Part shown: positions 4,356-33,110 of the stretch, in pieces
Layout of the letters: each line of letters starts with the position of its first letter
How positions within the stretch are numbered: position 1 is the stretch's first letter
Assembly (NCBI GenBank): GCA_002772545.1
Contig: PFDR01000040.1
Span: forward strand, 1-36,398
Direction: 5' to 3'
DNA from: Candidatus Peregrinibacteria bacterium CG10_big_fil_rev_8_21_14_0_10_49_10
GTDB taxonomy: Bacteria > Patescibacteriota > Gracilibacteria > Peribacterales > Peribacteraceae
Length of the DNA: 36,398 bases
Notes under the pieces: generated by a model
What the model was told of the DNA's origin: nothing
Database searches by the model: none
What the model saw: only the letters and a program-made list of their open reading frames with translations
Made by a program: the position numbers and the translations under genes

Positions 4356-4367
4356 AGGACAATGGTA
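4356..4367 (-). promoter_or_regulatory. -10-like hexamer of putative leaderless promoter (CotH gene)
   Basis: TACCAT-N6-ATG; the paralog upstream has TACCAT-N8-ATG (6149-6162). Confidence 0.35.
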
Positions 4368-4369
4368 GC

Positions 4370-6148
4370 TTATAACGCCGGGAAGGAATCCTGAAATACC
4401 CGTTCATCCACAACCGTTGTGTGGATGACTTGAGCCGGCTGCCCGGTGACGGCATTGCGGACATCGAGCAGAATAGGCAGATCTCTGGCTGCAACTCTGC
4501 GCAGTCCCGTAAGGAAAAAAAGATGATGTGTTTGCGGTGTAGTCACAGGCATGCCCACCCCATCGGTTTCCGGCTGCTTTGGTGCAAGGAACGCATGTTC
4601 CGGAAAAAATGCGTACTGATCGGCCTGCAGCCCCTCTGTTCGTTCAAAGGAAAGCGGCATATCTGCAGCATTGAATTGACCGTCACCATCATCACGCAGA
4701 ATGGAAAATACAGAATCCTGAACGAGCGCCAGGGGAAGCGCCAGACCGGAAAGTTGTGCGGCAACGGGGCCACGCACGGTCACATCGAGAACGAGATCCA
4801 CACCCTGGGCCTGTTCAGCATCCGTAGGAATACGTTGCGTAACGAGCACTTCGGAAATTTGTAACTGTTCTTTTAGAAACTCAATGTTTGCCCGAATATC
4901 ACGTATGCGATTATCCAGATCATGTTTCACCTGCCTGTTGCTCGGCAGCTTTATGGGATCGCGGTAGGCCAGCTCTTCCACCATCGCACGGAGCCGGTCT
5001 GCCTCCCGCAGGTCATCCTTTACCTGATCTTCGTTTGTTACGTACTCCCACAAAAAGCGATGGAGTGCCAGGTTCCATTCGGGAATAGCAAATACTTCAT
5101 CCCACAGAGGGTTACCGGGAGCCACCAGGAGTGAACGGGGTGGAATGAGAAATACATCCCAGGGAATGGGTTCGAACCGACCACGGGAAGGATCAAAAAG
5201 CAAACGGATGTTATCCCCTCCCGCATGGAGGTTTCCCGAAAGCATACTGTGCGCATACCACCTCACAAGCTGCTGTACATCAAAGAGTGTGTCAACCTGT
5301 GCACGGAACCCGGGCTGTGTATGAGCCCCCGGCTTCATAATGGAAAAGAGCGCATCGAGCTCCTCATACGAATCGTGCGGACTGACTACGGACTTGGTGA
5401 ACTTACCCCAGTAGGCCATATCATCGAAAATGGGATCCCACCCGTTGAAGACCGACGTTTGTACCCCGCCGGTCTTATAAAAGTTTACATCACCCGGACG
5501 TCCCTGCTTCTCCAGCATTCCCTTGGTCCAGTGTTCCACTTCTATGTAAGCAAGGGACTTGCTTCCGTTGAGAGACACACCCACTACACGCATGGGTGGT
5601 TGGAGTAACCCCAGTTTCTCTGCCCGATAGGAATTAAAGAGTTCTGCAAACCATCCTCTATCTTCTGGAATAATTAATGAGATCTCCCGCATACCTCTAA
5701 ACAGATGATCCTTTTTAAACTTTACCCGCCAGGACTTCTTGCGGAATTGCCAGTGATTAAACCTGTCTCCTCGTATATGCATTTCTACGTCATAGGTTTC
5801 GCCATTGGCCCGGAAGGTCGCCGGAATCCAAAACTTGGCATCGTCTTCCAGAAAAACATCCAGTTTGGCTATCTCTGCATCCAGCTTGACCAGTTCTTCG
5901 GTCGCTATGTCTATCTGGTAGAGTGGGATGTCTCCCGGAGCCTTTGGACCGCGGTACAGAACATTCAACGACCTGTCTGCCAGGCGCGCAAAAAGCAGTA
6001 CGGGTTGAATACGTCCTATAAAGGTATCCCGTGCCAGCACACCGTTGGGTGTGACCTGGTAGAAAACAAATGTAAGGCCAAGAAGAGCAACCAATTGTAT
6101 TGCAGCAATAACCAACAGACTCATGATGATGAATTTCAGCCTATTCAT
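4370..6148 (-). CDS. CotH kinase-like protein, short paralog without beta-helix
   Basis: Close paralog of the 1656-4355 product over the CotH region (KKSWRVKFKKDHLFRGMREISLIIPEDRGWF, LFDPSRGRFEPIPWDVFLIPP); ends at VVDERVFQ where the paralog continues into the beta-helix. Confidence 0.85.
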   Translation of the reverse strand: MNRLKFIIMSLLVIAAIQLVALLGLTFVFYQVTPNGVLARDTFIGRIQPVLLFARLADRSLNVLYRGPKAPGDIPLYQIDIATEELVKLDAEIAKLDVFLEDDAKFWIPATFRANGETYDVEMHIRGDRFNHWQFRKKSWRVKFKKDHLFRGMREISLIIPEDRGWFAELFNSYRAEKLGLLQPPMRVVGVSLNGSKSLAYIEVEHWTKGMLEKQGRPGDVNFYKTGGVQTSVFNGWDPIFDDMAYWGKFTKSVVSPHDSYEELDALFSIMKPGAHTQPGFRAQVDTLFDVQQLVRWYAHSMLSGNLHAGGDNIRLLFDPSRGRFEPIPWDVFLIPPRSLLVAPGNPLWDEVFAIPEWNLALHRFLWEYVTNEDQVKDDLREADRLRAMVEELAYRDPIKLPSNRQVKHDLDNRIRDIRANIEFLKEQLQISEVLVTQRIPTDAEQAQGVDLVLDVTVRGPVAAQLSGLALPLALVQDSVFSILRDDGDGQFNAADMPLSFERTEGLQADQYAFFPEHAFLAPKQPETDGVGMPVTTPQTHHLFFLTGLRRVAARDLPILLDVRNAVTGQPAQVIHTTVVDERVFQDSFPAL

Positions 6149-6175
6149 AGGTCAGAATGGTAACACAGGGTATGT

Positions 6176-6195
6176 GTATGTCGTATATGGTATGT
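6176..6195 (-). repeat. 20-nt element ACATACCAYATACGACATAC, copy 1
   Basis: Minus strand reads ACATACCATATACGACATAC, 19/20 identical to copy 2; lies upstream of the CotH start at 6148. Confidence 0.8.
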
Positions 6196-6241
6196 AAACC
6201 CTGCATACGACGTACCACATTCCACATACGAAAATGAAAAT

Positions 6242-6913
6242 CTATTCGGATTTTCTCGCCGCCACGTAGTACCCCGAACTCAAAATCCCCTGTTCCTCTT
6301 TTTTGTGTCCAATGTCTCCGTACTCTTTGGTGATGATGCCGCGAAGAAGCATCATGAGTTTTGCCTTGAGAAACCACAAAACTTTAAAGGGTTTCAACCA
6401 GAGCGTATCGCACTGGAATCCAATGCGTTGGTAGAGAACAGCGAGTGTTTCTGCTGTGGAGGTTTCCTCCTGCAGTTCCTGTATGTCAAATGCACTCAGG
6501 AGGTGACGAAGGCCGTATTTTGTATAACGGTAGTAGTCTCCCGGCGCATCGTGGATGGGGAAGATGAAACGCGTGGAAAGGAGCAGAAGCCCACCGGGTT
6601 TGAGAACGCGATAGAACTCTTTCATGGCCTGAGCAGGTGTGTGCAGATGTTCAAGTACCTCCGTGCAGAGGATGACATCAAAAGAGGCATCTGCAATCTG
6701 TGAGAGATCATGTGCATCTGCAATGATATCTACCTGCACACCGGGCCGTGCCTCTCTATCCAGTGTAGTGCGGTTAGGAAAGAGTGCTCCGTACTGGTCG
6801 TTGCCACAACCTATATCCAGTGTGTTGGCATCGGATGCATACTTCTGCAGAAACGCACTCAGACGTGGCCGGGTAATTTTGCGGGTGAGACCGATAACGT
6901 CGAAAAAAGACAT
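6242..6913 (-). CDS. Class I SAM-dependent methyltransferase
   Basis: TLDIGCGNDQYG motif I, DVILCTEVLEHLHTPAQAMKEFYRVLKPGGLLLLSTRF; start at MSFFDVIGL, preceded by CATACT-N6. Confidence 0.85.
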   Translation of the reverse strand: MSFFDVIGLTRKITRPRLSAFLQKYASDANTLDIGCGNDQYGALFPNRTTLDREARPGVQVDIIADAHDLSQIADASFDVILCTEVLEHLHTPAQAMKEFYRVLKPGGLLLLSTRFIFPIHDAPGDYYRYTKYGLRHLLSAFDIQELQEETSTAETLAVLYQRIGFQCDTLWLKPFKVLWFLKAKLMMLLRGIITKEYGDIGHKKEEQGILSSGYYVAARKSE

Positions 6914-6925
6914 AAGAGAAGTATG
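6914..6925 (-). promoter_or_regulatory. -10-like hexamer of putative leaderless promoter (methyltransferase gene)
   Basis: CATACT-N6-ATG on the minus strand. Confidence 0.45.
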
Positions 6926-6940
6926 CCAATACTCTATACT

Positions 6941-6960
6941 ACATACCACATACGACATAC
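6941..6960 (+). repeat. 20-nt element ACATACCAYATACGACATAC, copy 2
   Basis: ACATACCACATACGACATAC directly upstream of the GT4 start at 6968. Confidence 0.8.
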
Positions 6961-6967
6961 TGCTTCT
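6956..6967 (+). promoter_or_regulatory. -10-like hexamer of putative leaderless promoter (GT4 gene)
   Basis: CATACT-N6-ATG; mirrored by the divergent CATACT-N6-ATG at 6914-6925. Confidence 0.45.
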
Positions 6968-8110
6968 ATGCGCATTCTCCTCGTTGTCACAACACTCAAG
7001 CCCCAGAGCGGTTGGGGAACCTATGGCCGCAACACGGCACGGGCATTGCAAAAGAAAGGACACACCGTTTTTGCCCTTGTGCAGGAAAAAGCAGAAGAAC
7101 ATCTGTGTGAGCAGAATGAGAGCCTGCCGGATCCACTCTCCCTTCTCAGCTCTCCCCGTGCATGGCTGCAGACTGCTGTAGCTCTGCAAAAAGCCGTGCG
7201 ACGGTACAAGCCGAATATTATTCACGTGCTTGTGGAACCGTACGCATTGGCAGTTCCCTTCTCTCGCACAACGGTACGCACCCCCTGGGTACTGAGTTTG
7301 AATGGAACATATTCCGTACTGCCGCTCTACCACTGGCATACACGTCCGTTACTGCACAGGGCCTACCGTTCTGCAAACTACATCTTTAGTCCGAGCGACT
7401 ACACTGCAAAGCGCACGCTTGCGGCACTCAGCGAACAGTGCGGCAAACGCAGTGCGTCTGCCATCCGGAAAAAAATCGTGCGTTTTAAGTTGGGTATAGA
7501 ACCACCTGCAACAGAGAGGGTGCACCAAAAACAAAGGGAGAAACAGTTTCTCTCTGTGGGTGGCATAAAACCACGCAAGGGCATTGCGGAAACCATACAA
7601 GCCTGTGCCTCCTTTCGGAAACAGAGTAACCTTCCGTTCCATCTGCACCTCGTGGGGACGTATCCTGATGACGCATACAGAAAGGAACTACAGGAGCTCA
7701 TCCGTACAGAAAATCTCCATGCAAACATCACCTTTCATGGACATATAGACGAGAACGCTCTGGAAGGGCTCTACACACAGGCAGATCTCTTTATAATGCT
7801 CAGCAAATCATTCGGACATCATTTTGAAGGGTTTGGCCTGGTGTTTCTGGAGGCAAACATTCGGGGAATTCCGGTCATAGGTTCCAAAGACTCGGGATGT
7901 GCAGAAGCCATACAGGAAGGAAATTCAGGTTATGCAACGGACCCGATGGAACCCGATCAGGTAGCACGGCGCATGCGGAAAATTGTGGAGGAAGATTGCA
8001 TACGCTCCGAAGACTGCCGCAGGTGGGCACAGAAACATTCGGTGGAACAGCAGGCCACCACCTTCGAAGAAACATACAAAAGGGCACTCAGCAACTCAGA
8101 AACTGCTTAG
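6968..8110 (+). CDS. Glycosyltransferase family 4 (GT-B)
   Basis: MRILLVVTTLKPQSGWGTYGRNTARALQKKGHTV N-terminus; FLSVGGIKPRKGI; EGFGLVFLEANIRGIPVIGSKDSGCAEAI GT4 C-terminal motif. Confidence 0.88.
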   Translation: MRILLVVTTLKPQSGWGTYGRNTARALQKKGHTVFALVQEKAEEHLCEQNESLPDPLSLLSSPRAWLQTAVALQKAVRRYKPNIIHVLVEPYALAVPFSRTTVRTPWVLSLNGTYSVLPLYHWHTRPLLHRAYRSANYIFSPSDYTAKRTLAALSEQCGKRSASAIRKKIVRFKLGIEPPATERVHQKQREKQFLSVGGIKPRKGIAETIQACASFRKQSNLPFHLHLVGTYPDDAYRKELQELIRTENLHANITFHGHIDENALEGLYTQADLFIMLSKSFGHHFEGFGLVFLEANIRGIPVIGSKDSGCAEAIQEGNSGYATDPMEPDQVARRMRKIVEEDCIRSEDCRRWAQKHSVEQQATTFEETYKRALSNSETA

Positions 8111-8811: not shown

Positions 8812-8824
8812 ACCCCGCATGATA
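8812..8824 (-). promoter_or_regulatory. -10-like hexamer of putative leaderless promoter (SDR gene)
   Basis: TATCAT-N7-ATG(8811). Confidence 0.4.
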
Positions 8825-9010
8825 GCAGAGCCGGGAGACGAAAGAAGTATTCCCGGGAGAAACTCCTTTCTTCCGTGGACGGATGCGGTAGAAGCCTCTA
8901 GAATGCGGCACCGTATTTAAGGAAACAGATTGTTCCCTTGCAAGCTCATGCCGCATGTCACAGTCGCAACGGCGTCGCAACCCCTGCAAAAAAGTAGGAA
9001 GGACGTTTCC

Positions 9011-10638: not shown

Positions 10639-10771
10639 TACAGCTCTGCGAATATACGGATAATGGCTGAATAGGCTTCAAATTCCTATATAGCGGCGGA
10701 GCAATCGCTACGCAGTTATGACGTACGCAATACAAAACTCATGTATGATTCATACATTGCGAAACCGTACA

Positions 10772-12085: not shown

Positions 12086-12128
12086 GAACTTTCTTTCTTT
12101 CGTACGCACTTTCGGAGAGAATCTTCTC

Positions 12129-12773: not shown

Positions 12774-12849
12774 GAGAAGAAGCCTTGTTCTATAGAATGG
12801 CTAACCGTGCTATAAACACTGTCTTGCACATGTATTTTTCCTCTTCCTC

Positions 12850-12872
12850 TCTCCCCCTGGTGAAGGGGGAGA
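12850..12872. repeat. Palindromic REP-like element
   Basis: TCTCCCCC-tggtgaa-GGGGGAGA, 8-bp perfect stem within cctcttcctctctccccctggtgaagggggagaagcaggatgagggg. Confidence 0.7.
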
Positions 12873-13644: not shown

Positions 13645-14867
13645 ACATACTTCTGCTCAATGACCGATACCCTCCCCGTTACGAAAGTAGTGTGGCGTCC
13701 ATAACATACGGACTTGCAGAGCAGTACAAAAAACTCGGCCACAAGGTTACCGTGCTCACCTCACACAGAAAAAACGTGTCGAAGGTAATTCTCCGGGAGG
13801 AACATGTTATAAGTTTACCGGTTGAATACAGACCTTCACTCCGACACTACAAATCTCTGCGACAGAAGCAGGTATCTGCGATGCTCGAAGAAGAGATCAA
13901 ACGGATTGCACCGGATGTGGTGCATGCACACAACCTCCACATGTACCTCACCTACGATGCGCTCCGTATTGCAGCAACATATGCTCCCAAAGTCTTCATT
14001 ACCATGCATGACGTCATGAGCTTTCACTACGGCAGGCTCGCAACCGGCCGGTATCTTGCATCGGGAGGAGAGAAGGTACACACAAACTGGTTTGACCATC
14101 TTGATGAGGCCGGTCTGCAGTGGAACCCGCTCAGAAATAAGATGATTCTGCGGGCACTCGGGCACGTGACCAGAGTGATCGCAGTGAGTACCGCGCTTAA
14201 GAAGGCACTGGATGCGCATGGTATTCCCCGTACCTGCGTGGTGCAAAATGGCATAGACATAGCCTCGTGGAGAGCAACTGAGCAGGAAGCTGCGGATTTC
14301 CGACGTGCACACGCGTTGGAAGGAAAGAAGGTAGTGCTCTTTGGAGGAAGACTCAGCAGAGATAAAGGAAGTACGCCTCTGCTGCACGCCCTATCCGTGG
14401 TAAAGGAGACCGTGCCCACAGTCCGCCTGGTGGTGATAGGAGATCCCGGAAGGTGGGCGGGGCTGGTGCAAGAGGCGGGTGTAGGGAGTGAGGTTACCAA
14501 CTATGTGCAGTGCATAGACTGGCTCCCCAAAGAAAAGATGCGTGCGGCCTATGCCGCCTGCGATGTCGTTACAACACCTTCTCTGTGCCTAGATACATTC
14601 AATTTAATGAATGCGGAAGCCATGGCAAACAGCAAACCCGTGGTGGGAACATGCTTTGGAGGTACACCGGAAGTCGTGGAAGATGGCGTGACAGGATATG
14701 TTTGTAATCCGCTTAAGGAGAAGGAATACGCAAATCTGCTCAGCAGACTTCTGAAAGATCCGGAGCTTGCACACAAAATGGGTCGAGCGGGGAAGCAGAG
14801 AGTGGAAGAGCTGTTTACGGTTGAGAGACAGGCAGAAAAATATGTAGATCTCTACGGAATGCAATGA
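13641..14867 (+). CDS. Glycosyltransferase family 4
   Basis: ATGA overlap with the upstream gene; DVVHAHNLHMY, VVLFGGRLSRDKGSTPLLHAL, FNLMNAEAMANSKPVVGTCFGGTPEVVEDGVTGYV. Confidence 0.9.
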   Translation: MNILLLNDRYPPRYESSVASITYGLAEQYKKLGHKVTVLTSHRKNVSKVILREEHVISLPVEYRPSLRHYKSLRQKQVSAMLEEEIKRIAPDVVHAHNLHMYLTYDALRIAATYAPKVFITMHDVMSFHYGRLATGRYLASGGEKVHTNWFDHLDEAGLQWNPLRNKMILRALGHVTRVIAVSTALKKALDAHGIPRTCVVQNGIDIASWRATEQEAADFRRAHALEGKKVVLFGGRLSRDKGSTPLLHALSVVKETVPTVRLVVIGDPGRWAGLVQEAGVGSEVTNYVQCIDWLPKEKMRAAYAACDVVTTPSLCLDTFNLMNAEAMANSKPVVGTCFGGTPEVVEDGVTGYVCNPLKEKEYANLLSRLLKDPELAHKMGRAGKQRVEELFTVERQAEKYVDLYGMQ

Positions 14868-14920
14868 ACCATCGCTCGTTACTCCTTCCTAACCAGCCAA
14901 CGAACGAACAGGGAAACGCA

Positions 14921-15955
14921 TTAGAGCGTCCCCTCTCCTTTGAGTTCGGCTTCCATCATAAGACTCACCAGTGCCTCAAACGTGACTGTTGGCTGCCAAC
15001 CGAGCTTCTCCTTTGCATAACTGGCATCGCCACACAGATGATCCACTTCATTGGGACGGAAGAACTGAGGATCAACCACTACAACTGCTTTACCTGTCTT
15101 GGTATCTATTCCCTTCTCCTCGACTCCTTCACCCTCCCAGCGCACCTCTATGCCTGCATGCGCAAAAGCCTTTTCCGCAAACTCGCGAACGGAATGTGTT
15201 TCGCCGGTTGCCACCACGTAGTCTTCCGGAGTGGGCTGCTGCAGCATGAGATACATGGATTCCACGTACTCCGGTGCATACCCCCAGTCCCGGTGCGCAT
15301 GTAAGTTGCCCAGCGGAATGTGGTCCTGTTTTCCCTGCACAACATCCACCACACCTCTGGTAATTTTGCGTGTCACAAAGTTGGAACCACGGCGGGGACT
15401 CTCGTGGTTAAAGAGGATGCCATTGCACACAAAGAACCCGTATGCCTCACGGTAAATACGTGAAATTTCGTACCCGTAGAGCTTGGCCACACCATACGGA
15501 CTTCGCGGTTTAAAGGGCGTCTTTTCGTTTTGTGGCGCCTCACCGGGAGCGCCGCTAAAGAGCTCCGAGGTGGAGGCCTGGTAGAACTTGGAGTGCAAAC
15601 CCAGTATCCGAATGGACTCCAGAAGATTTTGAACCCCAATGGCATCGGAGAGTGCGGTGTAATACGGCACTTCAAAGGAAATCTGCACATGCGACTGCGC
15701 CGCGAGATTATAGACTTCATCGGGTTTGCATACAGAAACAACATGCAACAGGGAATTCATATCTGTCATATCACCATAGTGCAGCCAGGCATCTTTGTGC
15801 TTTTTAAAGTAGAGATCGTCAATACGCTGTCGGTTAAACGAGCTGGTACGACGCACGAGTCCGTGCACCTCGTACCCTTTATCCAGCAGAAACTCCGCCA
15901 GATATGAACCGTCTTGTCCGGTGATTCCCGTAATCAATGCTCTTTTTGCGCTCAT
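14921..15955 (-). CDS. gmd: GDP-mannose 4,6-dehydratase
   Basis: ALITGITGQDGSYLAEFLLDKGYEVHGLVRRTSSFN, YNLAAQSHVQISFEVP, YQASTSELFG-like, SPYGVAKLYGY, FNHESPRRGSNFVTRKI: near-canonical Gmd motifs. Confidence 0.93.
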   Translation of the reverse strand: MSAKRALITGITGQDGSYLAEFLLDKGYEVHGLVRRTSSFNRQRIDDLYFKKHKDAWLHYGDMTDMNSLLHVVSVCKPDEVYNLAAQSHVQISFEVPYYTALSDAIGVQNLLESIRILGLHSKFYQASTSELFSGAPGEAPQNEKTPFKPRSPYGVAKLYGYEISRIYREAYGFFVCNGILFNHESPRRGSNFVTRKITRGVVDVVQGKQDHIPLGNLHAHRDWGYAPEYVESMYLMLQQPTPEDYVVATGETHSVREFAEKAFAHAGIEVRWEGEGVEEKGIDTKTGKAVVVVDPQFFRPNEVDHLCGDASYAKEKLGWQPTVTFEALVSLMMEAELKGEGTL

Positions 15956-19452: not shown

Positions 19453-19465
19453 CACAGGAATTCTA
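19453..19465 (-). promoter_or_regulatory. -10-like hexamer of putative leaderless promoter (GT-C-like gene)
   Basis: TAGAAT-N7-ATG(19452). Confidence 0.4.
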
Positions 19466-19538: not shown

Positions 19539-19574
19539 TTGTAAGAGAGTGGTAAACCTCTTCATAATGCATTG
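19539..19574 (+). promoter_or_regulatory. Putative leaderless promoter (GT2 gene)
   Basis: TTGTAA, 18-nt spacer, CATAAT, then N6-GTG at 19575. Confidence 0.5.
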
Positions 19575-20447
19575 GTGCAAATCTCCGTCGTTATTCCGGC
19601 CTACAACGAAGCAGCGTGTATAAAGGACGTACTGGAAAAACTCACTCAATTTCTGCAGGAAAAGAACATACCTGCATCCATTATTGTGGTGGATGACGGC
19701 TCAGAAGACGGCACTGCTGCAGAAGCCAAATCTGTTTCCGGGGTGAAGGTCATCAAACATGCAGAAAACAGAGGCTACGGTGCAGCACTGAAAACTGGTA
19801 TACGTGCAGCAGAAACAGAGTGGGTTCTTAGCTACGATGCAGATAGCCAGCACACACCCGACTTGTTGCCGGCGTTGGTGGCACAACTTTCCGACGAAGT
19901 GGATATGGTCGTGGGAAAACGTGAGGGGTACAAAGGACCCCTCCTTCGTCAGCCCGGCAAACTGCTTCTGAGTTGGGTGGTTAATTTTCTCACTGATACC
20001 AAAGTACCGGACTTTAACTCCGGGCTCCGTGCCTTTCGCCGTTCGGTGTTTCTGCAATACATGCATCTGTTCCCGAATACGTTCTCCCTTTCTACCACCA
20101 GTACAGTCTGTTTTTTGAAAGAAGGAAAGAATGTCCGCTTCGTGCCCATTATCATCCAGCCAAGGAATGGAAAGAGCACCGTACGTGCACGGGATGCCGC
20201 ACGGACCTTCATGCTTATTCTGCGACTCATTATGCTCTTTTCCCCACTGCGCATCTTTCTCCCTCTGTGCGTTCTTGTAGGACTCACATCGCTTGGACTG
20301 CTCGGCTATGAACTGGTCGTGCATCACAATGTTTCAGATGGAGTTGTTATGCTTATGTCACTGACTGCCACACTGTTTTTCTTCGGACTGATTTCAGACC
20401 AGGTTGCAGCCGTACGAAGGGAGCTGCGTGTAAAAAGTGACAACTAG
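19575..20447 (+). CDS. GT2 family polyprenyl-phosphate sugar synthase-like protein
   Basis: ISVVIPAYNEAACI, IIVVDDGSEDGTA, NRGYGAALKTGI, YDADSQH, DFNSGLRAFRRSV; C-terminal TM pair. GTG start at 19575 preceded by CATAAT-N6. Confidence 0.85.
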   Translation: MQISVVIPAYNEAACIKDVLEKLTQFLQEKNIPASIIVVDDGSEDGTAAEAKSVSGVKVIKHAENRGYGAALKTGIRAAETEWVLSYDADSQHTPDLLPALVAQLSDEVDMVVGKREGYKGPLLRQPGKLLLSWVVNFLTDTKVPDFNSGLRAFRRSVFLQYMHLFPNTFSLSTTSTVCFLKEGKNVRFVPIIIQPRNGKSTVRARDAARTFMLILRLIMLFSPLRIFLPLCVLVGLTSLGLLGYELVVHHNVSDGVVMLMSLTATLFFFGLISDQVAAVRRELRVKSDN

Positions 20448-20460: not shown

Positions 20461-21330
20461 ATGAACCGCAAATATCTGTACGCCGTAAAGGGGATAGGAA
20501 TTGGATTCTTTTTGTGGTTCTTCCTTACGGCAGACCGTGCCTCTGTTGCGGGAGCGCTGACAATGGCTTCACCCACAAAGCTGGTTCTGGCCTTTTTACT
20601 TTTTCCACTCATTTATGGACTCAAATCTCTGCGATGGCAGAAGCTGGCACAGACCGTCGGTCTGCAGCTCTCCTTTTGGGAGGCTGCAGAGATGTACTGT
20701 GCGGCACTGTTTGCCGGAATATTGACACCGGGTAAAGTGGGAGAAGCCATTAAAATCCCTCTGCTCAAAGCACACAATCTTCCGGTGAAACAAGGAATAC
20801 TCATCACCATAGCAGACAGGGCACTGGATGCCGTACTGCTGGGGTTCCTGGCAGTGTGCGGTCTGTTTGTGCTCAGGCAGTTGCCCCTCGCTCCGGAATT
20901 CATGTTCCTCTGTGTTGCACTTGGCATCGTACTGGCCTGGACACAGAAACGCCGATTGAAACAGGAAACACACTGGAATGATCTTCGCACACTCCTTGGC
21001 ACGCACACCGTACAGATCGTTGTACTTACAGTACTGAACTGGTGTGTGTACTTTCTCCAGCTCTACTGGATAGCACAGGCCCTCTCACTGGAAATTCCTC
21101 TCATTGAATTTATAAGCATCATGACTATTGTGGGTATTGTAAGTCTGCTTCCCGTTGCTCCGGCCGGTCTGGGAACACGGGAAGCAACACTGTTGTTCTT
21201 CTTCGCAGCCTACAACATACCGGCTCATAAAATACTTGCGTTTTCCTACACTATTTTTGCACTCACAGTCGCTGCAGCGGTCAGTATAGGAGGCTACTGC
21301 TGGCTTAAATTACCTCTTCACCATTCCTAG
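20461..21330 (+). CDS. Lysylphosphatidylglycerol synthase TM region / UPF0104 flippase-like membrane protein
   Basis: LKSLRWQKLAQTVGLQLSFWEAAEMYCAALFAGILTPGKVGEAIKIPLL and ADRALDAV; SLLPVAPAGLGTREATLLFFF: hallmark pattern of the family. Confidence 0.83.
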   Translation: MNRKYLYAVKGIGIGFFLWFFLTADRASVAGALTMASPTKLVLAFLLFPLIYGLKSLRWQKLAQTVGLQLSFWEAAEMYCAALFAGILTPGKVGEAIKIPLLKAHNLPVKQGILITIADRALDAVLLGFLAVCGLFVLRQLPLAPEFMFLCVALGIVLAWTQKRRLKQETHWNDLRTLLGTHTVQIVVLTVLNWCVYFLQLYWIAQALSLEIPLIEFISIMTIVGIVSLLPVAPAGLGTREATLLFFFAAYNIPAHKILAFSYTIFALTVAAAVSIGGYCWLKLPLHHS

Positions 21331-21331: not shown

Positions 21332-23392
21332 ATGCAACAGAACACCTTCCGTATTGGTGACGTACGAGCCTTCTGGGACGGTGTGGCAGATGAGTACGAC
21401 CGCATCAATTCCGGTTTCAGCTGGACGCACACGGAACGGTTCGAGACGGCGCTCCTGTTTCTGCCCGAAAGAGAGAAGGCTGATGTTGTGAATATCTGGT
21501 CCCGGACAGGGGACGCTACACAGTGGATTCGCAAGAAGATTCCCGGCGCAACCATCCGCAATTTTGAAGTTTCTCCCCGCATGATTGAAAGAGCACAGGT
21601 AAAGTACCCTCACGAAACGTTTGAAGTGACAGATCTGCACGACCTGCCCTGTGCAACCGAAAGTCAGGATGTGGTACTCAGTCTGGAAACACTGGAACAT
21701 GTTCCGGATCCTCTCCACTTTTTGCTGGAGTGCCACCGCATTCTCCGTGTCGGAGGCACGTTGATTCTTTCTACCCCCCCGTCCATAGCAGAACTACCTC
21801 TTCGCTTGTATGAACACTGCTTTGCAAATCATGGAGAAGGACCGCACAGATTCCGCTCGGTGCATTCTGTGCTGCAAGCACTCCGGAACTGCGGTTTTAC
21901 CGTCGTGGAGCACAGAGGAACAGTGCTGTGTCCTGTAGGTCCGGATTGGCTCAAAAAACCGATTGAATGGTTTCAGCAGCACCTCCTGCGCTACATAGGA
22001 ACAAACCGCCTTGGTATCCGTCATTTTTTTGTTGCCGAGAAGAGAGAATCGCGTGATCCGGTTTGGGCAAAAATACACGAAGAAATTATTCGCCCGGGTC
22101 TCTGCATGCACTCGGGTACGGCTGTTGGCCTCTCTGAGGGGACTCTCCGGATGAAGGATATGGATGGGATCTGCGTGCCGGAACCTACCGGAACGGGGCC
22201 AATACCACCCGTTTGCTACAACGCATCACCGGAAATACACCCCTCCTATCCGGAAATGAATGCCAGCGTATTTGGCAAACCCGAACCACGGAGCTCCCTC
22301 CTGGGGGAATATAATCGCATAGCCGTAGGTCACAGCACAGATCCTGATGTACGGAGAGGTGGAGCAAGTGGAGGAATACTAACAGCGACCATTCTCCATC
22401 TTCTGGAAACAGAGAAGATCCGTGGTGCTGTGGTACTTGGCATGGACCCTGACGCTCCCTGGCGTGCCAAACCCATGATTGCACGCACGAAAGAAGAAAT
22501 TCTTGCTGCAGCACAGAGCAAATACGTTGTCTCCCCGGTCAATGTGATCCTGGCCGATCTGGAAAAGGAAGAAGGTCCTCTGGCGTACGTAGGGCTCCCC
22601 CACCAGGTCTTTGCTATCCGCCGGTTGCAGCAAATGCAACACCCTTCCGTGCGCAGTATTGCCTATGTGTTCGGTCCATTCTTTGGCAACGAACTCTTTG
22701 GCACAAGTATCGACAGCTTCCTGCGCAAGTTCCGGGTGAAAAAAGAAAACATTGCAGCCCTCTCCTACCGCACGGGCGAGTGGCCGGGGCATATGGAAGT
22801 GACCCTGAAAGACGGAAAGAAGTTACGAATGAAAAAATTCCATGCCAACTACCTTATTCCCTTTCACATTACGCAGAGTTCACTGCTTTCTCATGACCTG
22901 ACCAATGAATTTACCGACCTTTCAGGAGGGGATGCCTGGGCACCGGTGTATGAAAAACGGGGACAGGGATTCTCTCTGGTCATTTCCCGATCCGAAAAAG
23001 GCAAAACCCTTCTTCTGGAAATGGAACAGGCAGGGAAAGTGGAACTGAAAGACATCACCGAAGAAGAAGCTATTCAAATGCAATCGCACGGATTGGATTT
23101 AAAAAAGAGAGGAACATTCCTGCGTATAGACTTACAGAGGAAAAAAGGAAAGAGAGTGCCGGAATATGGTTTGGTCCTTGCAGAAAGTACCCGAACCCGA
23201 CGGTTGTTTGAGCGAGTGCTTTCTTCCCTCTTTGTACTGTGCAGCCTTCCGCTCTCCCGTTGGTTGGTGGATCGTACACCCAACTGGATTGTAGGAACGG
23301 CTTTTGAACAGTTTCGTACTGTCTGGAAGGCATGTACGAGAAATATGAAACGAACGGGGCTCTCTGCAAATAGCCTTACAATAAGGAATTGA
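21332..23392 (+). CDS. Fusion: SAM methyltransferase + FrhB/FdhB-like (coenzyme F420 hydrogenase/dehydrogenase beta subunit) domain
   Basis: N-terminus DLPCATESQDVVLSLETLEHVPDPLHFLLECHRILRVGGTLILSTPP; C-terminus RRGGASGGILTATILHLLETEKIRGAVVLG...YVGLPHQVFAIRRLQQ...FGPFFGNELFGTS...DLSGGDAW typical of the FrhB_FdhB family, in a single uninterrupted ORF. Confidence 0.8.
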   Translation: MQQNTFRIGDVRAFWDGVADEYDRINSGFSWTHTERFETALLFLPEREKADVVNIWSRTGDATQWIRKKIPGATIRNFEVSPRMIERAQVKYPHETFEVTDLHDLPCATESQDVVLSLETLEHVPDPLHFLLECHRILRVGGTLILSTPPSIAELPLRLYEHCFANHGEGPHRFRSVHSVLQALRNCGFTVVEHRGTVLCPVGPDWLKKPIEWFQQHLLRYIGTNRLGIRHFFVAEKRESRDPVWAKIHEEIIRPGLCMHSGTAVGLSEGTLRMKDMDGICVPEPTGTGPIPPVCYNASPEIHPSYPEMNASVFGKPEPRSSLLGEYNRIAVGHSTDPDVRRGGASGGILTATILHLLETEKIRGAVVLGMDPDAPWRAKPMIARTKEEILAAAQSKYVVSPVNVILADLEKEEGPLAYVGLPHQVFAIRRLQQMQHPSVRSIAYVFGPFFGNELFGTSIDSFLRKFRVKKENIAALSYRTGEWPGHMEVTLKDGKKLRMKKFHANYLIPFHITQSSLLSHDLTNEFTDLSGGDAWAPVYEKRGQGFSLVISRSEKGKTLLLEMEQAGKVELKDITEEEAIQMQSHGLDLKKRGTFLRIDLQRKKGKRVPEYGLVLAESTRTRRLFERVLSSLFVLCSLPLSRWLVDRTPNWIVGTAFEQFRTVWKACTRNMKRTGLSANSLTIRN

Positions 23393-23596: not shown

Positions 23597-23617
23597 AAGA
23601 AGGTACACTACAGGTCC

Positions 23618-24534: not shown

Positions 24535-24547
24535 TACTGTTTGTGTA
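24535..24547 (+). promoter_or_regulatory. -10-like hexamer of putative leaderless promoter (YfhO-like gene)
   Basis: TACTGT-N7-ATG(24548). Confidence 0.35.
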
Positions 24548-27007
24548 ATGAATCAGAATTTGCACTCGAAGCGTTTGCAGGGATGGCAGGGGCATTTACT
24601 GTATCACAGCCTGTTTCTCCTCCTTCTTTTGCTCCCGCTGCTCTTGGGAAAAGAGGCTTTTGGACACAAAGATGCACGCATGGAAGTGTACCCCTTCCTC
24701 ACACTTCTGCATGGGCGCATTGGAACTGTGAGCATGCTGTGGAATGACATAAACTTTCATGGATTCCCCCACTTCGTTACGAACGGATATATTTTTCATC
24801 CTTTATTTTATCTTCTCCTTCCGCTCCTCTCTTCTGTCTCCACATTGCACTGGACGATTTTTTTCTATCTGCTTGGCGGGGCAGTATGTTGTACACAGGT
24901 TTTAAAACGTGAGGGCTTTTCGAACTACGCGAGTATGGCGGTAGGTGCGGTTTTTTGCTTACGACTCTGGCCGTGGATGTTTGCACCCGGAAATGCATTC
25001 ATTCTTCTGCTTACGCCACTACTTCTTCTGGCCCTGCAAACAGCTACACAACGCACAAAAAAGGCAATAGTGATGGGAAGTGCCTCTATTGCATTTGCAT
25101 GGCTGGGTGCCCATTTTCATTACGCAGTCATTCTCATGGCTGTAGGCCTCTTTTTTGCCGCAGCTCAGATGGTGAAGCAGAAGCAAAATAGAAAGAAATT
25201 TCTCCTGGCTGTGCTTTCCATGTATGTCATTGGAACTACCATTGGATTGCTACGGATTCTCCCGGCACTCGGTTACGCAGCACTTTCGTCGCGGGGTGCT
25301 CTTGTAGAACTGGAGAGCCGTACTATCGGAACACTGTTCCCCTTCCTGTATGTGCTTCCGGATTTCAGTGCACCATTTTTGAGCGGATCCATTGAAGTTC
25401 TGCCCTATATGGGAGCTGTACCGCTCGCACTTGTGCTTATTGCTGTGGGCAGCAGATGGCGCAGTTCGCTGGTATGGGCATGCCTGGGTACCTACATCTT
25501 TTCTGTTCTCCTTGCAGTTCCGCATTCCCCGCTGCTTGCTCTGCTTTCTGTGCTACCGGGATTCCGGGCACTTGGGTCACCCGCACGCTGGATACTTATA
25601 GGTGCCACAGCACTCCTTCCACTCTGCGCAGCGGGCTTTGACCTGGTTATTCGAGATGCCGGAAAAGCCCAGCAATACGTTGCCCGAGGGATGTGTTTGG
25701 TAGGAGGGTTGCTGGCTGCAGCCTCTGCACTGGCCTCTCTGCTCCCTACGCTGCTGGAATCTTTTCAGGGAAGTATCGCACGTTCATTTGATGCACGATT
25801 TTCAGTATACCTCGAAACAATCCCCTCTAAAGCTGCAGAGGCACTCGGTACACACCGGGAGTACCTGCAAATATTTGTTTCCCGGTTTCTCCCGTCACTC
25901 GCAGAGCGCGTGAGTACACAGTACGGTCTTCTGCAAGCACACATGCTCTTCCCCATACTCACCCTTCTTGCAGGAGGCCTGCTACTCATGCCTCGCTTCT
26001 GGGAAAAGATACCTGCAGCAAAGCGCGGTACTGTACTTTTTACTGGCTGCACCGCATCGCTTCTGCTCGTCTACGTTCCTCTTCAGTGGAGCCGCACAGT
26101 GGAGAGAGGCAATTTGGAAGAACCTTCAAAGACAGTGGTGTTTTTGCAGGAAAATGCACAGCGATCATTTTCGTTCCTCCCGAGCAGAGGACTGCGGGAG
26201 CAATTGCAGTTGCGCAACGCAACGCAGGAAGAAATTTTGAGCGCACAGAAGCACATCATGTTCACAAACCAAAATCTCCTATGGGGTATAGACACCGCAG
26301 ATTACTACGAACCTCTGCACCCATTGCGTATGGCCAGACTCGTCGGTGCCATCGGCTCCGAAATAGTGCGACTGCCAGAGGCTGAATCTCTGGCACACTC
26401 TTCGCTCTCTATGGAAGAAACCCTCCGAGTATTGCAACAACGTCGCTTTGTTGTGAACCTTCTCGGCATCGACCATTTGGTGAGTACCTGGCCATTGGAG
26501 CAGGCAGGCTTCCGGAAGGTACACACAGAAGATGTGGCGGAAGGAAAAATGCTGGTATCTGTGTATGAAAACCCAGACACACTTCCCTTTGCCTATTTCC
26601 CCAAAGAAATCGAAACTATGGAACCGGACCCCGATGGCGCCTATGAAAGACTCCTTGGTCTCCGCGGCAATACCCCAGCAACACTCATCGAGTGTACGGA
26701 ATGTGCAGGAAAAGAACGCCATTCTGGATTGGGAAAAATAACAGTGGAGTACAAAGAACCCACCAGAGTGGGACTCTCCACTTCTTCCACAGAAGACCAG
26801 TGGCTGGTTGTATCACAAAATTTCCTTCCGGGATGGCACATGCTCCTGGATGGAAATCGCTCGCCTGTAAGTCTGGCCAACACCGTGTTCCCCGCAGTGC
26901 GCCTGCCTGCAGGCAACCATGAAGTCATACTACAATTCACCTACCGGCAATTACTGGAAGACTCCATCGCACTTCTACGAAACCCGCAAGCTTCTCTTTG
27001 GCTCTGA
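24548..27007 (+). CDS. Large polytopic membrane protein, YfhO/GT-C-like
   Basis: 819 aa with many TM segments; HKDARMEVYPFLTLLHGRIGTVSMLWNDINFHGFP N-terminal loop and C-terminal soluble domain ending VSQNFLPGWHMLLDGNRSPVSLANTVFPAVRLPAGNHEVILQFTY, typical of YfhO-like proteins. Confidence 0.72.
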   Translation: MNQNLHSKRLQGWQGHLLYHSLFLLLLLLPLLLGKEAFGHKDARMEVYPFLTLLHGRIGTVSMLWNDINFHGFPHFVTNGYIFHPLFYLLLPLLSSVSTLHWTIFFYLLGGAVCCTQVLKREGFSNYASMAVGAVFCLRLWPWMFAPGNAFILLLTPLLLLALQTATQRTKKAIVMGSASIAFAWLGAHFHYAVILMAVGLFFAAAQMVKQKQNRKKFLLAVLSMYVIGTTIGLLRILPALGYAALSSRGALVELESRTIGTLFPFLYVLPDFSAPFLSGSIEVLPYMGAVPLALVLIAVGSRWRSSLVWACLGTYIFSVLLAVPHSPLLALLSVLPGFRALGSPARWILIGATALLPLCAAGFDLVIRDAGKAQQYVARGMCLVGGLLAAASALASLLPTLLESFQGSIARSFDARFSVYLETIPSKAAEALGTHREYLQIFVSRFLPSLAERVSTQYGLLQAHMLFPILTLLAGGLLLMPRFWEKIPAAKRGTVLFTGCTASLLLVYVPLQWSRTVERGNLEEPSKTVVFLQENAQRSFSFLPSRGLREQLQLRNATQEEILSAQKHIMFTNQNLLWGIDTADYYEPLHPLRMARLVGAIGSEIVRLPEAESLAHSSLSMEETLRVLQQRRFVVNLLGIDHLVSTWPLEQAGFRKVHTEDVAEGKMLVSVYENPDTLPFAYFPKEIETMEPDPDGAYERLLGLRGNTPATLIECTECAGKERHSGLGKITVEYKEPTRVGLSTSSTEDQWLVVSQNFLPGWHMLLDGNRSPVSLANTVFPAVRLPAGNHEVILQFTYRQLLEDSIALLRNPQASLWL

Positions 27008-27011
27008 ATGA

Positions 27012-27992
27012 TCACTCCCCTGTATTTTTCTTCTCCTTCATCCACCCACGATGATCATTGAGAATATCATCAATGATGTAGGGAGGACGTTTCTTCACCT
27101 CATCGAATATTTTTCCGACGTACTCACCAATAATGCTCAGACTGAGGAGCTGTACACCCCCAAAGAAGAGTACAAGCAGATAAATGGTAATGAGACCCGG
27201 AGGACTCTTTTCCGGCGGGAGAACAATCCAGGCCGTAAAATAGCCCACAATAGCTAAAAAGGAGAGGACCGTGAAAAAGAATCCGAGGTAGGTTATCCAC
27301 TCCAGCGGTGCGCGTGAAAAGGAGATGATACCGTTCTTCGCATACCAAATGTAGCCACGCAGACTTGAGGGCGCACGCCTCCCGTCAAAGCGCTGGAGGC
27401 GGTGGTACTCTACACCGGTTTGCCTAAACCCGGTCCAGGCACGCAGGCCGCGGAGGAAGCGGTCGCGCTCGGGCATGGCATTTAAAGCATCTATCACCTT
27501 GCGATCCATGAGGGAAAAATCACCCACATCCACAGGAATACGAACGTAGGAAAGTTTGTGAAGCAACCGGTAAAACACTCTGCGGCAAAAGTGGATGAGT
27601 CTTCCTTCCTCGCGACTGGTGCGTACCCCGTATACCACTTCAAACCCCTCCAGCCAGTTCTGCACCATTGCGGGGAAAAGTGCAGGCGGATCCTGCAGGT
27701 CTCCATCAAGAATAATGGCAGCATCTCCCGTGCAGTAGCGAAGCCCGGATGTAAAAGCCATTTGCGAATTGAAGTTGCGGGAGTGCGTGATCACCGTGAG
27801 ATGCTGATCATTCTTTGCAAGTTCCCGAAAAATCTCCATTGCGCCATCCGGACTCCGGTCATTCACATAAATAATTTCGTAGTTGTTGGTAATCCCCTGC
27901 ATTACGTCTGTTACCAGTTTATACATCTCGCGCACAGACCCCTCATCTTTGTAACAGATGGGAATTACAGAGATCTTCTTGTTGGTGAGCAT
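27012..27992 (-). CDS. GT2 family undecaprenyl-phosphate glycosyltransferase (GtrB/ArnC-like)
   Basis: ISVIPICYKDEGSV, YEIIYVNDRSPDGA, SRNFNSQMAFTSGLRYCTGDAAIILDGDLQDPP, two C-terminal TM helices and IIGEYVGKIFDEVKKRPPY. Confidence 0.9.
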   Translation of the reverse strand: MLTNKKISVIPICYKDEGSVREMYKLVTDVMQGITNNYEIIYVNDRSPDGAMEIFRELAKNDQHLTVITHSRNFNSQMAFTSGLRYCTGDAAIILDGDLQDPPALFPAMVQNWLEGFEVVYGVRTSREEGRLIHFCRRVFYRLLHKLSYVRIPVDVGDFSLMDRKVIDALNAMPERDRFLRGLRAWTGFRQTGVEYHRLQRFDGRRAPSSLRGYIWYAKNGIISFSRAPLEWITYLGFFFTVLSFLAIVGYFTAWIVLPPEKSPPGLITIYLLVLFFGGVQLLSLSIIGEYVGKIFDEVKKRPPYIIDDILNDHRGWMKEKKNTGE

Positions 27993-28048
27993 AACGAGCC
28001 TAGTGTACAGTGATCCGCAGAGACTGCACGCAATTTTGCCGCTCTATA

Positions 28049-29997: not shown

Positions 29998-30051
29998 AAA
30001 AGCGGTCACTGCTATTTAGCTCATCTGTATTTCATGAGAAGATGCCTGTAC

Positions 30052-30882
30052 ATGGGTATTCTCTTAAAACAGGAATTGGCTGACTTAGAGAAGAAGAGCA
30101 GGCAGATTCGTGCGAGTGCGGTAGAGATGGTCTGCAACAGCCACAGTGCTCACTTGGGCTCCGCTCTCTCTATGGTTGATCTGCTGACAGTGTTGTACTT
30201 TTGGTACCTCAAGGTGGACCCGAAAAATCCAAAGGATTCCGAGCGCGACCGTTTTGTACTGAGCAAAGGGCACGGAGGTTCCGGGCTCTATGCCACTCTG
30301 GCGGAGAAGGGATTCTTTCCTAAAAAGGAACTGGAAACCTATGGAAAGGATGGCAGTTTATTTGCAGTGCACCCCAGCTCCAAAATGGTACCGGGGGTGG
30401 AAGCCTCCACCGGTTCGTTGGGGCATGGTCTTCCCATAGGACTCGGCATGGCTCTGGCCGCAAAGTTGGATGGAAAGCCCTACCGTACTGTTGTCATTAC
30501 AAGTGACGGTGAATGTGACGAAGGGTCCACATGGGAAGCAATTCTCGCTGCCGGACACTGGAAGTTAGACAATCTCATCTGCATTGTGGACTACAATAAA
30601 ATTCAGAGCTTCGGACGTACGGAAGAAGTGATGGATTTAGAACCCTTTGCGGAAAAGTTCCGTTCCTTCAACTGGAGCGTATGCGAAATAAATGGCCACA
30701 ACCACGAGGAGATTGCAGAAGCCCTTCATAAGGCACCACTGGAAAAAGGTAAACCCACAGCCATCATTGCCCACACAGTAAAGGGGAAAGGCTGGAGTGC
30801 GGAAATGGAGAACACCGTGGAGTCGCACTACACCCCACCAAATCAAAACGATGTGGATCGCTTAAAATCCTGCCTCAGCTAA
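30052..30882 (+). CDS. Transketolase-like, N-terminal (TPP-binding) subunit
   Basis: HSAHLGSALSMVDLLTVLYF, DRFVLSKGHGGSGLYATL, GSLGHGLPIGLGMALAAKL, GDGE-type CDEGSTWEA and DYNKIQ motifs. Confidence 0.92.
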   Translation: MGILLKQELADLEKKSRQIRASAVEMVCNSHSAHLGSALSMVDLLTVLYFWYLKVDPKNPKDSERDRFVLSKGHGGSGLYATLAEKGFFPKKELETYGKDGSLFAVHPSSKMVPGVEASTGSLGHGLPIGLGMALAAKLDGKPYRTVVITSDGECDEGSTWEAILAAGHWKLDNLICIVDYNKIQSFGRTEEVMDLEPFAEKFRSFNWSVCEINGHNHEEIAEALHKAPLEKGKPTAIIAHTVKGKGWSAEMENTVESHYTPPNQNDVDRLKSCLS

Positions 30883-31811
30883 TGCGCAATACGTTCATCA
30901 AAACTCTCACGGAGATCGGCAAGAAGGATACGAATGTTATGCTCCTCACCGGAGACCTGGGATTCAATGCACTCGAACCTTTTCGGGACGCCCTCCCCCG
31001 GCAATATGTAAATGTGGGTGTGGCAGAACAAAATATGGTGGGTGTGGCTGCCGGGCTGGCACTGAGCGGGAAGAGAGTATTTTGTTACTCCATCATTCCA
31101 TTTGCCACCTTTCGCTGCTGTGAACACATTCGTGACGATCTCGCCTATCACAATCTTCCTGTCACTATGGTGGGAGTGGGTAGTGGCTATGCGTACGGCA
31201 TTCTGGGCTCCACCCACCACTCACTGGAAGATGTTGCCGTGCTACGCTCGTTTCCCAATATGACTGTGCTCTGCCCGGGAGATCCCCTGGAAGTAGAAGC
31301 ACTCACGCATGGAATAATGAAACAACATGGCCCCTGCTATCTGCGACTTGGAAAGGCGGGTGAGCCAAACATTCACAAAAAACCTCTGGAGAACTGTGCT
31401 ATTGGCAAAGCTATCACGCTGCACACAGGTAAAGACGTGACCATTGTAGCTACAGGCTCCATGCTGCAGACGGCAGCGGAGGCAAGGGAACTTCTGGAAA
31501 CGGAACATATTTCTGCGGGACTGGTAAGCATGCACACGCTCAAGCCTTTCGATGAGGAAATTGTGCAAAGAGTAGTGCAGGAAACGGCACTGATTGCCAC
31601 CGTGGAGGAACACAGCGCTATAGGCGGTCTCTCTTCCGCTGTAGCCCAGGTGCTTTCGCAAATGTCCGGCCACGCACCGCACCTTACTATTGCAACTCCC
31701 GATTCTTTCGCTACAGACACAGGATCGCAGAAATTTTTCCGGGAGAAGGTGGGGCTGACCGCAGAGAAGATTGCCGCAAGTATTCGCCATTACCTTCCTG
31801 CCCATGCCTAA
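30882..31811 (+). CDS. Transketolase-like, C-terminal subunit
   Basis: VGVAEQNMVGVAAGLALSGKRVFCYSIIPFATFR, DVAVLRSFPNMTVLCPGDPLE, MHTLKPFD, EEHSAIGGLSSAVAQVL; TAATG junction with the N-terminal subunit. Confidence 0.92.
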   Translation: MRNTFIKTLTEIGKKDTNVMLLTGDLGFNALEPFRDALPRQYVNVGVAEQNMVGVAAGLALSGKRVFCYSIIPFATFRCCEHIRDDLAYHNLPVTMVGVGSGYAYGILGSTHHSLEDVAVLRSFPNMTVLCPGDPLEVEALTHGIMKQHGPCYLRLGKAGEPNIHKKPLENCAIGKAITLHTGKDVTIVATGSMLQTAAEARELLETEHISAGLVSMHTLKPFDEEIVQRVVQETALIATVEEHSAIGGLSSAVAQVLSQMSGHAPHLTIATPDSFATDTGSQKFFREKVGLTAEKIAASIRHYLPAHA

Positions 31812-31863
31812 ACCTATAGAAGCCATTGCACGCAGTACAAAAACAAGACACAATCATCTTCCC

Positions 31864-33057
31864 ATGGCAGATGAAAAGCGGAACATTGCATATACCAAGC
31901 CGGTCTTCGATGAATCGGAGATCGACGCCGTGTTGGAGGTACTCAAAAAGGGATGGTTGGGGATGAAGGATAAAGCGGAAGAACTCGAAGCATCCATAGC
32001 CAGGAAGATAGGCACAACACATTGCAGACTGTGCAATTCCGGATCCTCCGCGAACTTACTGGCTATTTCGGCATTGGAGCTCCCCAGGGGCAGCGAGGTC
32101 ATTACACCTGCCTGTACATTCCCTACCACTATCAACCCCCTCATACAGAACAACCTGGTCCCTGTACTGGTGGAAGTTACAACGGGGTTTGTGCTGGATG
32201 CCGAAAAGGTGGAACAGGCAGTGAGCGAAAAAACAAAGGCAATTATGGTGCCCCAATTACTGGGAAATGTGGCCAATATGGACCTCCTCACTGAGATTGC
32301 AGAGAAACATGATCTCGTCATTATTGAAGATTGCTGCGACGCATTTGAGAGCCGATGGAATGGAAAAAATTGCGGTACGTTTGGTAAGGCCGGAACCTAC
32401 AGCCTGTACGCCTCACATCACTTTACTGCTGCCGGGGAGGGGGGCGCTCTGGTCACAAGTGACAAAGACTACTACAACCTTATACAGCAGTACCGAGACT
32501 GGGGAAGGCGCGGTACATGGGGCTGGGATGAGAGTACGCGCTTTGATGTAAGTCTGAGTGACGGAACACCATTTGATGAACGTTACTACTTCCGCAACAT
32601 CGGGTACAATCTGAAAATGACAGAGATACAAGCAGCCTTTGCCTTAAAGCAAATGGCAAGGTTGGATGGCTTCCGTGAGCGACGCGTTACCCACTTCCAA
32701 AAGCTTTACGGCGCCTTCCGGGAACAATTCTCCGACTTCTTTGAGCTCGTTACCTGGCACGAGAAGGCGGATCCCGCCTGGTTTGTCTTCCCCTTCCTGG
32801 TGCAGGAATCCGCACCATTTACCCGCAATGAGGCTATTGGGTTCTTTAATAAATGGGGAGTAGAGGGCCGCACGCTCTTTGTGGGAAACATACTGCTGCA
32901 CCCGGCCTATCAGCACATTGAACACCGTGTTGCCGATGATCTTTCGTTCAGCAACCAAATTGCAAAACGAGGGATGTTCATAGGAATAGGACCACAAATG
33001 GAGCCGGAAGATCTCGACTACATCGTGGAGGTAACGCGGAAGCTCTGCACACAGTAG
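31864..33057 (+). CDS. DegT/DnrJ-fold sugar 3-dehydratase (RfbH/ColD-like, His at PLP site)
   Basis: CNSGSSANLLAISALELPRGSEVITPACTFPTTINPLIQN, IIEDCCDAFESRWNGKNCGTFG, SLYASHHFTAAGEGG (His-His where aminotransferases have Lys), RDWGR...FRNIGYNLKMTEIQAA. Confidence 0.85.
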   Translation: MADEKRNIAYTKPVFDESEIDAVLEVLKKGWLGMKDKAEELEASIARKIGTTHCRLCNSGSSANLLAISALELPRGSEVITPACTFPTTINPLIQNNLVPVLVEVTTGFVLDAEKVEQAVSEKTKAIMVPQLLGNVANMDLLTEIAEKHDLVIIEDCCDAFESRWNGKNCGTFGKAGTYSLYASHHFTAAGEGGALVTSDKDYYNLIQQYRDWGRRGTWGWDESTRFDVSLSDGTPFDERYYFRNIGYNLKMTEIQAAFALKQMARLDGFRERRVTHFQKLYGAFREQFSDFFELVTWHEKADPAWFVFPFLVQESAPFTRNEAIGFFNKWGVEGRTLFVGNILLHPAYQHIEHRVADDLSFSNQIAKRGMFIGIGPQMEPEDLDYIVEVTRKLCTQ

Positions 33058-33098
33058 CAAAGCAACTATGAGAACGAGCCTATGGAGGTAGCATTTGG

Positions 33099-33110
33099 TA
33101 TCATCCGTGT
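33099..33110 (+). promoter_or_regulatory. -10-like hexamer of putative leaderless promoter (MBOAT gene)
   Basis: TATCAT-N6-ATG, no Shine-Dalgarno. Confidence 0.45.

Follow-up and report, generated by a model that had tools for sequence, protein, structure and literature searches.

Sigma-70-like -10 boxes placed for probable leaderless transcription in a Peribacteria genome with a degenerate anti-Shine-Dalgarno sequence

The window described here is the whole of contig PFDR01000040.1 (36,398 bp; C86 in our numbering) of Candidatus Peregrinibacteria bacterium CG10_big_fil_rev_8_21_14_0_10_49_10, a member of the Peribacteraceae, and many of its genes, among them those for several glycosyltransferases and methyltransferases, are preceded at short distance by -10-like hexamers (Table 1). 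A preliminary description of the window listed twelve such hexamers at starts with no Shine-Dalgarno (SD) sequence and proposed that they mark leaderless promoters at most transcription-unit starts. All twelve are present at the distances from the starts that it gave (seven TANNNT, three CANNNT, one GANNNT and one AANNNT), and an additional clear box, TACACT at -15 of the minus-strand gene starting at 27992, had been overlooked. The spacings of N6 to N8 that it reported do occur, but the range extends from N6 to about N11.

Table 1. Coordinates of candidate promoter elements and other features in the window. N6 to N9, number of bases between hexamer and start codon; pBox, value from the expectation-maximization (EM) model.
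Feature	Position	Strand	Class	Start codon and gene	Remarks
-10 box TATCAT, N6	33099..33104	+	TANNNT	ATG 33111, MBOAT O-acyltransferase	EM pBox 1.00
-10 box TACCAT, N6	4362..4367	-	TANNNT	ATG 4355, CotH/beta-helix protein	same offset in same-genus ortholog
-10 box TACCAT, N8	6157..6162	-	TANNNT	ATG 6148, CotH protein	retained at -14 in same-genus ortholog
-10 box TATCAT, N7	8819..8824	-	TANNNT	ATG 8811, SDR	overlaps alternative ATG 8820
-10 box TAGAAT, N7	19460..19465	-	TANNNT	ATG 19452, ~563 aa protein, no Pfam hit	19452 or 19455 as start
-10 box TACACT, N8	23604..23609	+	TANNNT	ATG 23618, GT2	pBox 1.00
-10 box TACTGT, N7	24535..24540	+	TANNNT	ATG 24548, YfhO-like membrane protein	sequence match
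-10 box TACACT, N9	28002..28007	-	TANNNT	ATG 27992, GT2	pBox 1.00; absent from the preliminary description
-10-like CATACT, N6	6956..6961	+	CANNNT	ATG 6968, GT4 glycosyltransferase	pBox 0.99; divergent from 6913
-10-like CATACT, N6	6920..6925	-	CANNNT	ATG 6913, methyltransferase	pBox 1.00
-10-like CATAAT, N6	19563..19568	+	CANNNT	GTG 19575, GT2	pBox 0.78
-35-like TTGTAA	19539..19544	+		GTG 19575, GT2	sequence match; 18 bp upstream of CATAAT 19563
weak -10-like GAGAAT, N6	12117..12122	+	GANNNT	ATG 12129, methyltransferase	GANNNT not enriched genome-wide
weak AATCAT, N6	31852..31857	+	AANNNT	ATG 31864, DegT aminotransferase	AANNNT not enriched; start caller chose 31804
C/U-rich tract, no -10 box, no SD	34632..34649	+		coupled internal start 34652 (TAATG junction)	pBox 0.03
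C/U-rich tract, no SD	21312..21329	+		internal start 21332	pBox 0.05
16S rRNA gene 5' end	36311..36398	+			at contig end

Several boxes bear on the choice of start codon. In the SDR gene the automatic start caller chose 8820 over 8811, where the protein would begin MDLSGKVIVITGA, and the GTG at 19575 has both CATAAT and the -35-like TTGTAA in front of it; the preliminary description regarded these two starts as resolved by their boxes, which we find plausible rather than proven. For the YfhO-like gene the coding score alone gave a start at 24629, and the N-terminus from 24548 plausibly runs into the first hydrophobic segment.

The window is one contig of a metagenome-assembled genome (MAG) of 1.25 Mb in 98 contigs that is 90% complete, and the search was extended to all of its contigs (1,253,722 bases, 72 kb of them masked as N). 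For one protein of the window, the nearest relatives with names are Candidatus Peregrinibacteria and Peribacteria. A purpose-written finder based on coding statistics called 911 genes, with starts chosen by coding score and without regard to any upstream signal. Starts were classed as divergent, distant (a same-strand gap of at least 100), mid or operon-internal, with divergent and distant starts together taken as first genes, and the controls were 200 mononucleotide shuffles, ATGs inside genes, antisense ATGs and shifted windows. A genome-wide comparison of first and internal genes, as the preliminary description had suggested, reveals a positional enrichment that peaks at -12 and is confined to likely transcription-unit starts. 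A lack of such enrichment, which that description had named as refuting its proposal, is not seen. TANNNT is present at -16..-12 before 78 of 205 divergent ATG genes (38%; shuffles 23.4 +- 4.5, maximum 34 in 200) and 73 of 179 distant ones (41%; shuffles 24.8 +- 4.8), but before only 11 of 97 that are operon-internal (11%; shuffles 9.3 +- 2.9). The shuffled rate is about 10-14% in every start class, and 4.5-4.7% of ATGs inside genes or antisense have the motif at these positions. First and operon-internal ATG starts thus differ strongly (151/384 vs 11/97; odds ratio 5.1, p=3.8e-8). The narrower TANNMT is found exactly at -12, its peak, in 130 per 1000 starts vs 3 per 1000 antisense ATGs, and drops to 8 per 1000 at -11, a sharp edge. 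The upstream regions are pyrimidine-rich, and a box-like signal might arise by chance or from the composition of a pyrimidine-rich, A+T-rich region; however, neither the composition-preserving shuffles nor any of the other three controls reproduces the box, and we regard such an artefact as extremely improbable.

The proportion of first genes with a box depends on how strictly it is called. Among 368 genes with unambiguous starts, cross-validated at a 5% false-positive threshold, 44% of divergent and 49% of distant starts pass, compared with 20% of operon-internal starts and 7-16% in the shifted control, where 10-16% is the range for transcription-unit starts. The final EM was a two-signal model (-10 box plus pyrimidine tract) with a positional background; it replaced an EM lacking that background, in which the two signals became fused. 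With free choice of start it assigns a box to 81% of divergent, 69% of distant, 58% of mid and 37% of internal genes, and the 69-81% for first genes is an optimistic upper bound. A robust box is therefore present at about 40-50% of unit starts, and the claim that most of them carry one is not proven. The hexamer classes also fare differently: GANNNT and AANNNT, put forward as weaker boxes, show no genome-wide enrichment, and CANNNT, with 26 observed against about 37 expected, is not enriched and can be rejected as a genuine second box class. Its CATA-T subset is above background (6 vs 3), and the CATACT and CATAAT boxes are individually plausible.

When the 151 boxed starts are aligned on the box, the consensus is TA[CT]A[CA]T, preceded by TG at -3/-2 relative to the box as in an extended -10 element. 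An excess of T (0.54) and of TTG (12, vs 0-4 at farther positions) lies 23 nt ahead of the first base of the box, which we interpret as a weak -35 element with a 17-bp spacer. The best-scoring random-start EM runs reach GGTATACT at the same position as the box. We interpret the hexamers as sigma-70 -10 elements with the consensus TG-N-TAYAMT. In sigma-70 geometry, a hexamer at -12..-7 sets +1 on the A of the ATG. Alternatively, the box could act in translation, as a ribosome-binding element (A/U-rich or non-canonical) on mRNAs with ordinary 5' untranslated regions; it occupies the usual place of an SD, and non-SD genes from several phyla have an A/T-rich upstream bias (PMC5397173). However, operon-internal genes need translation signals and yet lack the box, the box ends abruptly at -12, and a ribosome element has no need of an extended -10 or of a -35 at 17 bp. 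These two elements are promoter features that do not involve the start codon, and we think a ribosome element very unlikely.

A second alternative accepts the promoters as real but gives them short leaders of about 5-15 nt, arising from variable start sites or miscalled starts, so that few mRNAs would be truly leaderless. The boxes at offsets -13 to -17 together exceed those at -12, and boxes are also in excess at -26..-33, a hint that some promoters have leaders. Even so, no single offset is commoner than -12, at which +1 falls on the A of the ATG, and the edge at -11 is sharp. A pyrimidine at -1 followed by A at +1 is consistent with a favored initiation site, although internal genes share the pyrimidine at -1. 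We consider generally short leaders unlikely. It is from the mode at -12 and the sharp edge that a transcription start at or near the AUG is deduced, and our preferred reading, to which we give a probability of roughly 0.88, is that these are sigma-70 -10 elements from which about half of first genes would give leaderless or near-leaderless mRNAs.

The same arrangement recurs in relatives. In 36 genomes of the family, TAYAMT-N6-ATG is found 2360 times vs 506 for the reversed pattern used as control (4.7x), with a ratio above 2x in 35 of the 36, whereas in 23 genomes from other families of the class the counts are 1144 vs 785 (1.5x) and only five exceed 2x. Orthologs of 115 starts, taken from 400 kb of four relatives, have a box at 38 of 62 counterparts of boxed starts vs 13 of 53 counterparts of unboxed ones (p=8e-5), and identity in the columns flanking the box is near random. 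The leaderless-promoter signature is thus, as judged from these sequence patterns, family-wide in Peribacteria. Its enrichment at -12, its restriction to likely unit starts, the extended -10 and -35, and its recurrence in the family and at orthologs all favor the leaderless interpretation first put forward for the window.

Genome-wide, SD tetramers do not rise above background in any start class, internal genes included, and duplex energies between the upstream mRNA and the 16S tail are near those of shuffled sequences with either the genome's own tail or the canonical one. An SD that has co-evolved with the genome's own tail (GGAAG/AGGAA) can also be rejected: these words are depleted, and GGAAG, the complement of the tail, is present in 4 of 607. 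Across the 59 genomes AGGAG-N5-8-ATG occurs at about 1-2x control in all families, counts that are dominated by coding matches and hence uninformative. The 3' end of the 16S gene was located on another contig (C18, locus L018, about 161-240), where it reads GGAUGGAACACUUCCUUACCAGGGAA, not ...GGAUCACCUCC. The tail itself, ACACUUCCUUACC, is without CCUCC and has CUUCC as its anti-SD core, a state that strengthens the leaderless case; the preliminary description had recommended inspecting the 16S 3' end. Of 18 family tails (our own and 17 others) 16 no longer have CCUCC, and only G003 and G020 retain it; the variants among the other 17 are CACUUCC, CAUCUCC, UAUCUCC, CAUUUCC, CGUUUCC or CGUUUCUG. 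Other families of the class yielded eight tails, five of which retain GGAUCACCUCC.

The altered anti-SD core of the L018 tail (ACACUUCCUUACCAGGGAA) covaries across the family with a downstream hairpin partner. The former anti-SD can pair with its downstream complement, perhaps only in the precursor, and in the 18 tails pair 12-26 is U-A in ten, C-G in eight and broken in none. Self-complementary 16S tails also exist in other bacteria. The mature 16S 3' end may lie at ...CUUCCUUA or extend to GGGAA. We note that several family 16S genes (G011, G026, G035 and others) give split or partial covariance-model matches, of which insertions or contig ends are perhaps the cause.

Apart from SD pairing, the GAUCA and CCUCC of the 16S tail are recognized by the GTPase Era (PMC10582724). 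No full-length Era was found in this genome or in its family, where matches cover the GTPase domain only and are mostly two-domain frames of the size of Der; full-length Era is present only in G037, G048 and G057, all of them outside the family. Since SD pairing is unused and Era is absent, the tail would be free of both known constraints and would have drifted: the GAUCACCUCC tail may retain only the pairing with its own downstream complement. A search for bS21 found none in this genome, and only weak matches scattered within and outside the family; bS21 loss was therefore set aside as a marker. In G044, G046, G048, G055 and G057 the conserved GTPase genes run through in-frame TGA codons, as expected where TGA is reassigned.

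Genes without a box have a different upstream signal. Across the genome they have a C/U-rich stretch that peaks at -18..-9 and is about 80% pyrimidine, and six-pyrimidine runs peak at -20..-14; the tract is not tied to one word, and T or C occupies -1 in 80-90%, with G nearly absent, at operon-internal starts too. One example is the coupled start at 34652. Junctions of the ATGA or TAATG type, reported for genes deep inside operons, occur in the window, yet genome-wide they account for a minor share of same-strand pairs (51 of 540). One explanation for the tract is an inverted SD, in which a C/U word such as UUCCC pairs with a GGGAA that lies past the former anti-SD, in a lengthened 16S 3' end. 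UUCCC does occur in excess, clustering at -16..-14, and the tail contains GGGAA. However, many other C/U words are enriched equally, the pairing presupposes a mature 3' end that reaches GGGAA, and genomes with a GGGAG tail show no replacement of UUCCC by CUCCC, the shift being opposite (medians 1.49 vs 1.93). With the covariation test against tail variants having run the wrong way, we rejected the inverted SD, which we judge very improbable. Loss of bS1 or IF3 was also rejected, as both are encoded: the genome has a bS1-like gene with S1 domains and a gene for IF3, and IF2 was identified by motif (761 aa, GHVDHGKT).

These observations suggest a model. Transcription would begin on the start codon or about 1-5 nt before the AUG, and ribosomes could load on the 5'-terminal AUG through a 70S- or IF2-type pathway. 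Box-less genes, operon-internal ones included, may depend on translational coupling, on the C/U tract at about -18..-9, possibly in contact with bS1, or on both. A stronger version is that Peribacteria are obligately SD-free, with leaderless first genes, a C/U element (about -18..-9, with pyrimidine at -1) that stands in for the SD at all other genes and is probably read by bS1, and an anti-SD that serves only as a hairpin strand now that neither SD mRNAs nor Era are there to read it; we offer this tentatively, and doubt that all of it will hold.

Several considerations weigh against the leaderless reading and the account of the tail built upon it. The conservative test gives a box at only about 45% of transcription-unit starts, and the EM over-calls, since 37% of internal genes are given a box. 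The start codons rest on a home-made gene finder; together with the fragmented MAG and the comparison of outgroups by pattern counts only, these gene calls are the main limits of the analysis. The single covarying pair in the 16S tail may go back to few evolutionary events. Era is also missing from those families of the class in which CCUCC is retained, so Era loss alone is insufficient to account for decay of the tail.

Three other features of the window are worth recording. The interval 138-6148 (minus strand) is a cluster with DUF4956, a VTC-domain protein (polyphosphate polymerase-like) and two CotH-kinase proteins. Within a glycan-synthesis cluster, 21332-23392 (plus strand) encodes a single protein that combines a methyltransferase domain with FrhB/FdhB N- and C-terminal domains. 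A 146-aa open reading frame at 14864-15304 (plus strand), with an ATGA-type junction, is almost wholly antisense to a GDP-mannose dehydratase gene (14921-15955, minus strand) and is probably not a gene.

The consequences extend beyond this genome. Promoter-level evidence for leaderless expression is added for a lineage of the Candidate Phyla Radiation in which the literature searched gave only low SD use and CCUCC loss in one species. Within one clade, leaderless promoters go together with the loss of SD and of Era and with decay of the anti-SD, which provides a testable order of events for losing an anti-SD, the order proposed being Era first, SD next and the tail last. Gene finders that expect an SD likely misplace starts throughout the family, which has at least 39 genera. 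Leaderless signatures, and CCUCC loss in Ca. Peribacter riflensis, were already known, and their combination seems unreported in the literature searched; that literature yielded no description of leaderless promoters in Patescibacteria, which is no proof of absence elsewhere.

Among known systems, the closest are the TA-led genes, in which a TANNNT some 12 bp ahead of the start codon is taken as a -10 box giving leaderless mRNA; these make up more than 20% of genes in Actinobacteria and about 30-40% in Deinococcus-Thermus, and medium-GC genomes have TAtaaT-like cores (PMC3160421). The likeness lies in a TANNNT at about -12 that is enriched over shuffles, is found at first and not internal genes and appears sigma-70-like. 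Unlike the TA-led genomes of that study, the Peribacteria genome is without any SD and its anti-SD is degenerate. In Deinococcus-Thermus a -10 motif adjoins about 30% of open reading frames and has been shown to be promoter-active with leaderless mRNA (PMC12340547, in which we found no mention of Patescibacteria). The Peribacteria have the same -10-adjacent pattern, known here from sequence alone, but D. radiodurans also has genes led by a ribosome-binding site (PMC12340547) and the Peribacteria genome has none. Ca. Peribacter riflensis is included, with an SD use of 7%, in an SD-scarce class iv without CCUCC (PMC10783764), and a 16S tail lacking CCUCC and very low SD use are shared with our genome; the portions of that source available to us describe neither leaderless promoters in Peribacteria nor a C/U tract, a covarying tail hairpin or spread through the family. 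The Bacteroidia also translate independently of SD sequences, with an intact anti-SD that is sequestered by bS21, bS18 and bS6 (PMC9976891), whereas in this Peribacteria genome the change is in the anti-SD sequence, and a search of the genome gave no bS21. Overall, the genome looks like a natural, largely SD-free translation system.

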